Origin: a virus
DNA length: 28,712 nt
Virus record (IMG/VR): IMGVR_UViG_2162886015_000006
Coordinates: 1-28,712 of that record
Reading direction: 5' to 3' (one strand)
Shown one piece after another: positions 3,376 to 9,901 of this stretch. Numbering within the stretch: position 1 is the stretch's first letter; each line of letters begins with the position of its first letter. A program made the translations under genes and the position numbers. The notes beneath the pieces were generated by a model. That model worked only from the letters and a program-made list of their open reading frames with translations. It was not told the DNA's origin and searched no databases.

Positions 3376-3412
3376 GTTATATGCCCTCGGCCTCCTGGCG
3401 TACGTCGGCTAG

Positions 3413-3452
3413 TTGACGCATAGTTGGCGACAGCGTAGACTCAAGGTTGAGG
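3413..3452 (+). promoter_or_regulatory. doubled promoter before the zinc-knuckle paralogue
   Basis: TTGACG (3413), 17 bp, TAGACT (3436-3441), plus TTGGCG (3424), 17 bp, TTGAGG (3447-3452): an 11-bp offset. It matches the promoter at 1953 at nearly every position from CTAGTTGAC through TAGACTCAA. Confidence 0.7.
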
Positions 3453-5016: not shown

Positions 5017-5043
5017 ACCCCCGACGCCCCTGGCTTCGGGGGT
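5017..5043 (+). terminator. hairpin terminator, cassette B
   Basis: ACCCCCGA (5017-5024) pairs with TCGGGGGT (5036-5043), followed by TGCTTCTTAATT. It ends the transcript of the MazZ-like gene and abuts the next promoter. Confidence 0.75.
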
Positions 5044-5081
5044 TGCTTCTTAATTGAGCCATGGTAGACTCTTGGTAGAAC
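5043..5081 (+). promoter_or_regulatory. doubled promoter, cassette B
   Basis: TTGCTT (5043), 16 bp, TAGACT (5065-5070), and TTGAGC (5054), 16 bp, TAGAAC (5076-5081), both offset by 11 bp. The first -35 starts in the last base of the terminator stem. Drives the genes at 5100 and 5204. Confidence 0.65.
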
Positions 5082-5434: not shown

Positions 5435-5447
5435 CTCAGCCGATGCG

Positions 5448-5476
5448 ACCCCCGGAGTCTTTTGACTCCGGGGGGT
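5448..5476 (+). terminator. hairpin terminator, cassette C
   Basis: ACCCCCGGAGTC (5448-5459) pairs with GACTCCGGGGG across a 4-T loop: an 11- to 12-bp stem, the strongest of the four cassette hairpins. It is followed by TTGCGCTTTAG. Confidence 0.75.
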
Positions 5477-6269: not shown

Positions 6270-6285
6270 TCGGTCGGCCTCATGT

Positions 6286-6315
6286 AACCCCCGGAGTCCT
6301 TTGGCTTCGGGGGTT
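6286..6315 (+). terminator. hairpin terminator, cassette D
   Basis: AACCCCCG (6286-6293) pairs with CGGGGGTT (6308-6315), followed by GCTTCTTGGTT. Sequence and position match cassette B closely. Confidence 0.75.
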
Positions 6316-6353
6316 GCTTCTTGGTTGGGACATGGTAGACTCTTGATTAGACG
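6314..6353 (+). promoter_or_regulatory. doubled promoter, cassette D
   Basis: TTGCTT (6314), 16 bp, TAGACT (6336-6341), and TTGGGA (6325), 17 bp, TAGACG (6348-6353). The -35 offset is 11 bp and the -10 offset is 12 bp. Drives the 72-aa gene. Confidence 0.65.
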
Positions 6354-6991: not shown

Positions 6992-7576
6992 GTGCTTGCA
7001 GACAACACCACCGGCGTTCCCCTGGGCTACGCAAGAGTTTCGACGGAGAAGCAGAGCCTTGCTCGGCAAGAGCATGCCTTGACCGCGGCGGGAGTTTCCC
7101 AAGACCGCATCTACGTCGACAAGATGAGCGGCGCCCGTGCCGATCGCCCTGGGCTGCAGGCGCTACTCGGATACGCCCGCGCCGGAGACACGATCGTCGC
7201 CTACACGTTGGACCGGCTAGGCCGCAACCTTCGCGAGGTGCTCAACCTGGTTCACGACCTCGGAGAGCGGGGAGTCCACGTGCGGACCCTGGCCGACCCG
7301 ATGCCAGTCAACACGACAGCCGAGGGCATGGGCCGCATGGCCTTCCTGCTGCTGGCCCTCTTCGCCGAGATGGAGAGGACCTTTGCCCTCGAACGGGCAG
7401 CGCACGCGCGCTCGGTGGCCACAGCCCACGGACGCCGGATCGGCCGGCCCAAGGCGCACAGCGACGAGACGATCGAGTACGCCCGCCTCCTCCGCCAGCA
7501 GGGGGACTCTCTGGGCGAGATCGCGCGGAAGACGGGGATCCCGCGGTCGAGCGCGCACCGATACCTCGTGGCTTGA
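6992..7576 (+). CDS. small serine recombinase (resolvase/invertase type)
   Basis: 194 aa, the usual length for the Tn3-resolvase/Hin-invertase class. The catalytic domain begins with [10 protein letters not shown] (nucleophile Ser17) and continues through [26 protein letters not shown], the [17 protein letters not shown] strand-helix, and the long E helix ([20 protein letters not shown]). [21 protein letters not shown] leads to a C-terminal helix-turn-helix ([20 protein letters not shown]). It breaks and rejoins DNA through a 5'-phosphoserine link between two short sites. GTG start with AGGAGG. It shares the catalytic fold but not the size of the integrase downstream. Its role in this phage (invertase, dimer resolution, or remnant of a mobile element) is not shown by the sequence. 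Confidence 0.92.
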
Positions 7577-7682: not shown

Positions 7683-7700
7683 CGAGATCATCCTAACGAC
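7666..7700. repeat. three TAACGA iterons at exact 14-bp spacing
   Basis: TAACGAGATC at 7666-7675 and 7680-7689, and TAACGAC at 7694-7700. Starts are at 7666, 7680 and 7694. The third copy is the outer part of the hairpin's left arm, and its inverse occurs at 7730-7736. Confidence 0.75.
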
Positions 7701-7738
7701 TTGCTAGCCGAGCGAAGCGAGGCTAGCAAGTCGTTAGG
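7692..7738. repeat. 18-bp perfect inverted repeat with GCGAAGC in the loop
   Basis: CCTAACGACTTGCTAGCC (7692-7709) is matched exactly by its reverse complement at 7721-7738. The 11-base loop contains GCGAAGC, a sequence known to fold into an unusually stable DNA mini-hairpin. No T-run follows, so it is not an obvious terminator. A recombination site, protein-binding cruciform, origin-type element or structured RNA are all possible. Confidence 0.85.
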
Positions 7739-7756
7739 GAGTAAGGGAGCAAGGCC

Positions 7757-8099: not shown

Positions 8100-8151
8100 T
8101 GACCTAGGTGGCGTGCACTACGGCGAGTGGTACTGTACGGCACCTAGGTCA
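8100..8151. other. candidate phage attachment site (attP)
   Basis: A 52-bp dyad. The outer arms TGACCTAGGTG (8100-8110) and CACCTAGGTCA (8141-8151) are perfect inverted repeats. The inner half-sites (8111-8125 against 8126-8140) match at 9 of 15 positions, giving 19 of 25 per half-site. The central dinucleotide (8125-8126) is GA, which is non-palindromic as serine integrases need for directionality. The site lies 22 bp before the integrase start, a usual attP position. Length, imperfect dyad and location all fit; strand exchange there is inferred. Confidence 0.7.
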
Positions 8152-8173
8152 ACGGCGAGTAAGGCTAAACTCC

Positions 8174-9670
8174 ATGAACGATCTAGCTCCGGCCTTCCGT
8201 GCACGACGCCTGAGGGCAGTAATCTACGCCCGCCTGAGCCGCTCCACTGAGGAAAGCACGAGCATCGAGCGTCAGGTGATGGCCTGCCGGTCCTTCGCTG
8301 AGGCCCGCGGGTACGAGGTGGTTCTTGTCTCAGATGTGGACGTTGATGTGAGCGGTGGCCGTCTAGCACGACCGGGCCTCGATGAGGTCCGGGCCCGATG
8401 GGACGAGTTCGACGTACTTATCTTCTTCAAGCTGGACAGGCTATCCCGCTCACTCCTCGACTTCATCTCGATATTGGAGGAAGCGCGGGGGCACAATGTC
8501 GCCCTCGTCTCAGCGACTGAGCCGCTCGACATGACGTCACCAATTGGCGAGGCCATGGTTAAGGTGCTGGCCATCTTCGCCGAGCTGGAGCGGAAGACGA
8601 TCGCATTCCGGGTCACGGGGGCGATAGCGCATCTCCGCTCGAGCGGCCGGATAGCCGGCGGACCCATCCCGTACGGCATGAGGAAGGCCCCGAATCCGGC
8701 CGGCGCAGGCTACGTGCTGGCCATCGACGAGGAGAAGGCCGTGTACGCCCTCGAGATGGTCGACCGCGTCCTAGCCGGCGAGTCGTACCGTTCGATCTGC
8801 CGCCTGATGAACGAGCGGGGGATACCGACCCCGCGGGGTCGCGGGGACACCTGGCGCCCGAACACGGTAAAGGCCATCCTGAAGAATCCGGCCCTCTGGG
8901 GCGCCATAGTCCACCAGGGGCAAATAGTGCGCGGGGAAGACGGGATGCCTATCCTGTCGGCGGCCATAGTCTCGCGGGACACCTGGGACTCCGTGCAGAC
9001 CGAGGTGGAACGGCGGGGAAAGCCGAGCGAGAGGAACGGGTCTCTCCGCCAAGGGCTGCTTTCGGGGCTACTGGTCTGCGACCACTGCGGGACCCGCCTG
9101 GGCATGAACCGCGGTGGGCCGAAGACGAGGGAGCGTGTCTACACGTGCCCAACGAAGGGCCACGGCGGGAAGTGTGTCGGGGTCGCTATCACGGCAGCGC
9201 GCGTAGAGGAGTACGTGACCGCCCGGTTCCTGGAGAAGTATGGCACCTGGTCTATGCCGCTACCCGTGTTCTTCGAGGAGGAGGCGGAGGTGCGGACGGA
9301 GCCCGAGGAGCTGAGGGCCGTCGAGACCGCGATGGCCGATCTAGAGGCGGACCGGTACGAACGCGGCCTGTTCGGTGGGGAGAACGGTGCCCACCGGTTC
9401 GCCGAGATGTACCAGCGGCTGGAGCTGCGGCGAGACGTGTTGCTCACCGAGGTACGTGCAACCCCCGACGGGGACAACTTCGAGATCTTGTCAACGACGA
9501 TGGGCGAATACTGGGGGACCGCCGGGCCAGAGGATCGACGTCTCATGGAGGATCGCCGTCTCCTCCTCCGCGGCCTGGTCGGGTCCATCCGTGTCAAGAA
9601 GGGCCAGCCCGGTCGCAAGGGACTCGATCCGGCCCGGGTCATCTTCGAGAAGGGGTTGGCCGGATCGTGA
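8174..9670 (+). CDS. int: large serine integrase
   Basis: 498 aa, the normal size. The catalytic domain starts VIYARLSRSTEESTSIERQ with nucleophile Ser22 and continues with FFKLDRLSRSLLDF and the E-helix (VKVLAIFAELERKTIAFR). The recombinase domain includes IPYGMRK, RLMNERGIPTPRG and WRPNTVKAILKNP. A zinc ribbon follows (CDHCGTRL with a later CP and KC pair), then a coiled region (about 390-450) typical of the arm controlling directionality. It integrates phage DNA at attP x attB without host factors; excision needs a phage directionality factor. The ATG at 8174 is chosen because the longer reading would cross the attP dyad. AGG eight bases before the ATG is a weak site. Opposite in strand to the lysis genes. 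Confidence 0.95.
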   Translation: MNDLAPAFRARRLRAVIYARLSRSTEESTSIERQVMACRSFAEARGYEVVLVSDVDVDVSGGRLARPGLDEVRARWDEFDVLIFFKLDRLSRSLLDFISILEEARGHNVALVSATEPLDMTSPIGEAMVKVLAIFAELERKTIAFRVTGAIAHLRSSGRIAGGPIPYGMRKAPNPAGAGYVLAIDEEKAVYALEMVDRVLAGESYRSICRLMNERGIPTPRGRGDTWRPNTVKAILKNPALWGAIVHQGQIVRGEDGMPILSAAIVSRDTWDSVQTEVERRGKPSERNGSLRQGLLSGLLVCDHCGTRLGMNRGGPKTRERVYTCPTKGHGGKCVGVAITAARVEEYVTARFLEKYGTWSMPLPVFFEEEAEVRTEPEELRAVETAMADLEADRYERGLFGGENGAHRFAEMYQRLELRRDVLLTEVRATPDGDNFEILSTTMGEYWGTAGPEDRRLMEDRRLLLRGLVGSIRVKKGQPGRKGLDPARVIFEKGLAGS

Positions 9671-9714: not shown

Positions 9715-9891
9715 ATGGAACAGCGGGACGATCTTCTAGACCAGATACGGGAACGACTCGGGGACAACGCCGATCGGTATGACCTCGGCGGGATCGTGCA
9801 GGCGATCCTGGACAGGTACGGGGACGTCGCCACATTGGATTACATCGATCCGGACACGCTTCATGCGATCTTTAGCGCCAACGAGACCTGA
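9715..9891 (+). CDS. acidic 58-aa protein after the integrase
   Basis: MEQRDDLLDQIRERLGDNAD begins an acidic, helical, soluble protein; the rest includes LGGIVQAILDRYGDVATLDYI and a DTLHAIF helix. No family recognised. There is no ribosome-binding site. A TATGAC -10-like box ends six bases before the ATG, so the message may be leaderless. A clear -35 is missing. Its place 44 bp after the integrase makes an excision-directionality or regulatory role worth testing, but nothing in the sequence proves it. Confidence 0.6.
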   Translation: MEQRDDLLDQIRERLGDNADRYDLGGIVQAILDRYGDVATLDYIDPDTLHAIFSANET

Positions 9892-9901
9892 AATGACGAA
9901 A

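Follow-up and report, generated by a model that had tools for sequence, protein, structure and literature searches.

A probable intact attP site adjoining the large serine integrase gene of a temperate phage

Positions 8100-8151 of the window (the whole stretch of DNA analysed here, 28,712 nucleotides long, which comes from a linear virus record of 28.7 kb) very probably constitute the intact phage attachment site, attP, of a temperate phage whose large serine integrase gene lies alongside. Comparison with relatives of that integrase indicates that the site, with GA as its central dinucleotide, has most likely escaped recombination and that the DNA was most likely not integrated there. The features concerned are as follows.

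8100-8151, plus strand: predicted attP, full site of two 26-bp half-sites; a dyad matching at 20/26 positions, with a position, centre and symmetry that agree with attP sites rebuilt from relatives.
8100-8125, plus strand: P half-site, int-distal, delimited on the sequence.
8126-8151, plus strand: P' half-site, int-proximal, likewise delimited.
8125-8126, plus strand: central dinucleotide GA, the predicted 2-bp crossover, at the dyad centre, which is the place of the crossover in four relatives, Bxb1 and phiC31.
8166-8171, plus strand: TAAACT, candidate -10 box of a leaderless int transcript, proposed from sequence alone.
8174-9670, plus strand: large serine integrase of 498 aa, with Resolvase, Recombinase and zinc beta-ribbon domains (Pfam).

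The dyad reads TGACCTAGGTGGCGTGCACTACGGCG followed by AGTGGTACTGTACGGCACCTAGGTCA. Its outer 11 bp, TGACCTAGGTG in the P half-site (8100-8110) and CACCTAGGTCA in the P' half-site (8141-8151), pair without mismatch, and the half-sites match at 20 of 26 positions, or at 19 of 25 when the outermost pair is left out and 8101-8125 is set against 8126-8150. An attP of this kind is expected to be an imperfect repeat of ~45-50 bp with half-sites of ~25 bp, an asymmetric dinucleotide at its centre and a complete large serine integrase alongside. Here, the repeat measures 52 bp, the pair at its centre (G8125-A8126) is non-palindromic, and the integrase ATG (8174) follows after a gap of 22 bp (8152-8173), with the dyad centre 48 bp before it. 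The preliminary description had listed perfect 11-bp outer arms, 19/25 matching positions, a non-palindromic GA and a spacing of 22 bp to the ATG, all of which were reproduced exactly. When the centre is moved by up to 10 bp, other registers reach at most 9/25, and the dyad is the best even-centred one in the 28.7-kb window, scoring 20 where the runner-up scores 16. Under a chance model defined as the first-order Markov composition of the window, a score of 20 was reached in 2 of 300 simulated whole windows; in a larger simulation of 11.8 million centres, 20/26 matches arose in three and 11 perfect outer pairs in seven. No further copy of the half-site is present in the window, even with up to three mismatches allowed.

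The integrase itself is intact, with all three Pfam domains present, and its predicted catalytic Ser22 and zinc-binding Cys302, Cys305, Cys325 and Cys334 are invariant across the aligned relatives; its nearest solved structure is that of a 500-aa integrase, 9iu2. Minus-strand genes for portal, capsid, tape-measure and peptidase proteins occupy the right-hand side. The left side holds small genes, most of them without assignment, together with a small serine recombinase gene of the DNA-invertase family (6992-7576, PHROG 125), which precedes the large integrase by 0.5 kb. The DNA separating these two genes contains, ahead of a short cysteine-rich ORF, a near-perfect long hairpin (7693-7740) of ~21 paired bases, the best odd-centred dyad of the window. 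The left part also contains recurring intergenic cassettes, each a hairpin with a promoter-like sequence ending in TAGACT (2361-2417, 5018-5074, 5443-5474 and 6282-6345; also 1949-1987 and 3409-3447). Immediately after int, a 58-aa ORF (9716-9892) is a possible candidate for an accessory factor such as a recombination directionality factor (RDF).

The search for attP as an inverted repeat of ~50 bp beside int is established practice (PMC5311408). The attP of phage phiJoe, for which the same line of reasoning was followed, is an inverted repeat 18 bp upstream of int and was proved by integration and in vitro recombination; phiJoe is a different phage, of Streptomyces, with a different integrase, and its attB and RDF are known (PMC5311408). 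Applied to two well-studied systems as controls, our scan located the attP of Bxb1 (16/25, centre at -25, GT) and that of phiC31 (15/25, centre at -59, TT), although in Bxb1 a terminator outscored it. In both phages, the scan centres agree with the experimentally known attP and crossover. These dyads equal the window site in size and likewise lie close before int with the crossover at their centre, but they are less symmetric (15-16/25 against 19/25) and have other sequences and dinucleotides. The same scan found no such dyad upstream of int in SV1, and an attP dyad upstream of int is accordingly a common arrangement, not a universal one. In a wider survey of the interval 30-140 bp before a reference residue, a dyad at p≤0.05 preceded int in 18 of the 30 phage records whose integrases are related, as against 1 of 16 integrated or resident genome copies, counts that are descriptive because the records are related to one another and the phage records are not independent. 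Among known phages, Adolin and Crewmate, Arthrobacter phages of the Manhattanvirus group whose integrases are 39-40% identical to that of the window, resemble it in having a strong dyad (18-19/25), a putative attP, immediately before int; they differ in the dyad sequence and in that the dyad lies still nearer to int.

The best relatives of the integrase reside in integrative elements of Streptomyces, a host group identified from gene content and neighbouring genes, inserted where an xpb-type helicase gene has its 5' end. Most of the remaining genomes of the genus have this gene uninterrupted, and there it starts with GTGAACGG(A/T)CC.CT.ATCGTCCAG. Serine-integrase elements enter it at about codon 5 and thereby give it a new start; such insertions were seen at locus L102 (14030-14080) and in genomes G124, G792, G920, G911, G998, G777 and G877. 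In G124, the integrase lies within an 18-kb element that adjoins the helicase gene and carries GntR, FtsK-like and replication-type genes (types judged from translations); its int-side junction, the crossover centre, is 46 bp before the int ATG, and its second junction reads GTGAACGGACCGCTGATCGTCCA, followed by element DNA. Both junctions could be located in four elements (G124, G920, G911 and G777), from which attP was rebuilt by joining the two element ends and attB by joining the host flanks. In all four, the best dyad of the rebuilt attP falls exactly at the shared crossover, with 15, 18, 15 and 16 of 25 matches, respectively, whereas the rebuilt attB sites score 11, 10, 7 and 7. One junction of G911 has TA in place of CA at the centre, which is best read as decay after integration. 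Like the window site, these attP sites, whose integrases are 43-45% identical to that of the window over nearly their full length, are imperfect dyads of ~50 bp just upstream of int, with the centre in G124 at almost the same distance from the ATG (46 bp, as against 48 bp in the window). They differ from it in half-site sequence, in their central CA (TG in int orientation) instead of GA and in their lower symmetry (15-18/25 against 19/25); their carriers, moreover, are conjugative-type elements and not phages, whereas the window is phage DNA. The int-side junction in these integrated relatives corresponds in position to the centre of the window dyad, and the earlier proposal that the dyad is the phage attachment site is strongly supported by the four rebuilt sites together with the Bxb1 and phiC31 controls.

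The same elements bear on the state of the site. Their int-side arm lies just before int, and neither the hybrid sites nor the empty site displays a dyad: the actual attL and attR hybrids score 4-10 of 25 as against 15-18 for the rebuilt attP. The window site, at 19/25, is therefore most likely an unrecombined attP, which upholds the earlier suggestion that the DNA was not integrated at this position.

Other roles for the dyad deserve consideration. A palindrome ahead of a gene could bind a regulator, and it is conceivable that 8100-8151 is an operator or promoter element at which a regulator, or the integrase itself, controls int while recombination takes place elsewhere. The location of the dyad directly upstream of int would suit such a role, as would the -10-like TAAACT (8166-8171), which would bring the P' arm over the -35 region. 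Most phage operators, however, have a second copy of their half-site, which is absent from the window, and the 52-bp length and non-palindromic central pair fit attP instead; in addition, when the int-side arm of a relative is joined to the arm at its other end, the crossover shows this same geometry. Repression of int by attP-bound integrase would be an added role of the site rather than an alternative to it. We regard the operator explanation as very unlikely.

The proximity of a second serine recombinase, the invertase-like product of 6992-7576 encoded 0.5 kb upstream, raises the prospect that the smaller enzyme uses the dyad for its crossover. Known crossover sites of invertases and resolvases, at ~26-28 bp, are half as long as the dyad, and the window holds no partner copy with which inversion or resolution could take place; the dyad adjoins the large integrase, whose class of attP it matches in length and position, and the probability left to an invertase site is minimal. 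An RNA hairpin, whether a terminator or a leader structure, would be consistent with the good fold of the sequence as RNA (-34.9 kcal/mol, z -4.4), but such folding is expected of any dyad, a T-run is absent and no terminator was called. Nor does a chance palindrome account well for the dyad, at ~2.5e-7 per position, or a few in 100,000 over the ~100 bp before int; it is the place directly before an integrase that makes a fortuitous dyad so improbable. Taken as one, the hairpin and chance explanations are exceedingly unlikely.

Closer relatives were sought in several ways. Pattern scans of viral and genome contigs recovered no close integrase relative, and plasmid records likewise held no close integrase; profile and genome searches yielded integrases 42-46% identical, of the Streptomyces family. 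The preliminary description had proposed a comparison with prophages carrying a close integrase. No such prophage was found in the pattern, profile and genome searches, and the comparison of junctions could be made only in relatives ~45% identical. An exact 20-bp half-site had no match in viral contigs. A 15-base arm pattern had 25 matches, only one of them at a locus with a related integrase (33%), ~5 kb off; the likeness to the half-site was at chance level. A search for the host by means of the portal protein returned a single 38% match in 396 genomes and was uninformative. Neither a host nor a matching attB emerged from these searches, and attB patterns derived from attP, being short and degenerate, would mostly match by chance when no host narrows the field. 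A related phage, G001 (IMGVR_UViG_3300046683_000404; 42,654 bp), has structural genes in common with the window at 73-80% DNA identity. Its large serine integrase is another one (31%), which indicates that the integration module has been swapped, and it was consequently ruled out for mapping the site despite the common structural genes.

From established serine-integrase biochemistry we infer how the site would be used, including binding, cutting at GA and the choice of a host target. An integrase dimer would occupy the two half-sites, its zinc-ribbon domains contacting the outer 11 bp and its recombinase domains the inner part, and would form a synapse with a second dimer bound to attB in the host. 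All strands would then be cut at GA (8125-8126), in the centre, with a 2-bp stagger, and partners would be exchanged by subunit rotation before religation, giving attL and attR. After integration, int would adjoin one hybrid site, as it does in the Streptomyces relatives. In the structure of the LI/A118 integrase bound to attP, the zinc-ribbon domain recognizes positions ~16-24, counted from the centre, and the recombinase domain the innermost ~12 (PMC3783163). By analogy, the outer 11 bp of the window site (positions 16-26 from the centre) are likely the motif of the zinc-ribbon domain, and the inner part that of the recombinase domain.

The position of TAAACT (8166-8171) suggests a leaderless int transcript with its -35 region beneath the P' arm. 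The hexamer was not called by a sigma-70 scan; the Streptomyces relatives, too, have TAnnnT-like hexamers ahead of int. Because this placement would put the -35 region of int under the P' arm, autorepression is possible. We entertain, as a rather doubtful extension, that attP may also be the control switch of int: the P' arm would overlap the int promoter, integrase bound there would repress its own expression, and the control would be reset upon integration, which changes the sequence past the centre.

The window site is a new example of a well-known kind of site. It adds a pair from a little-sampled branch of integrases, in which the best relatives are ~45% identical, with an attP that is unusually symmetric. 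The relatives, for their part, supply a mapped set of attP and attB sites at the 5' end of the Streptomyces xpb-type helicase gene. Integrase/attP pairs can serve as orthogonal integration tools and help in the study of how serine integrases recognize their sites.
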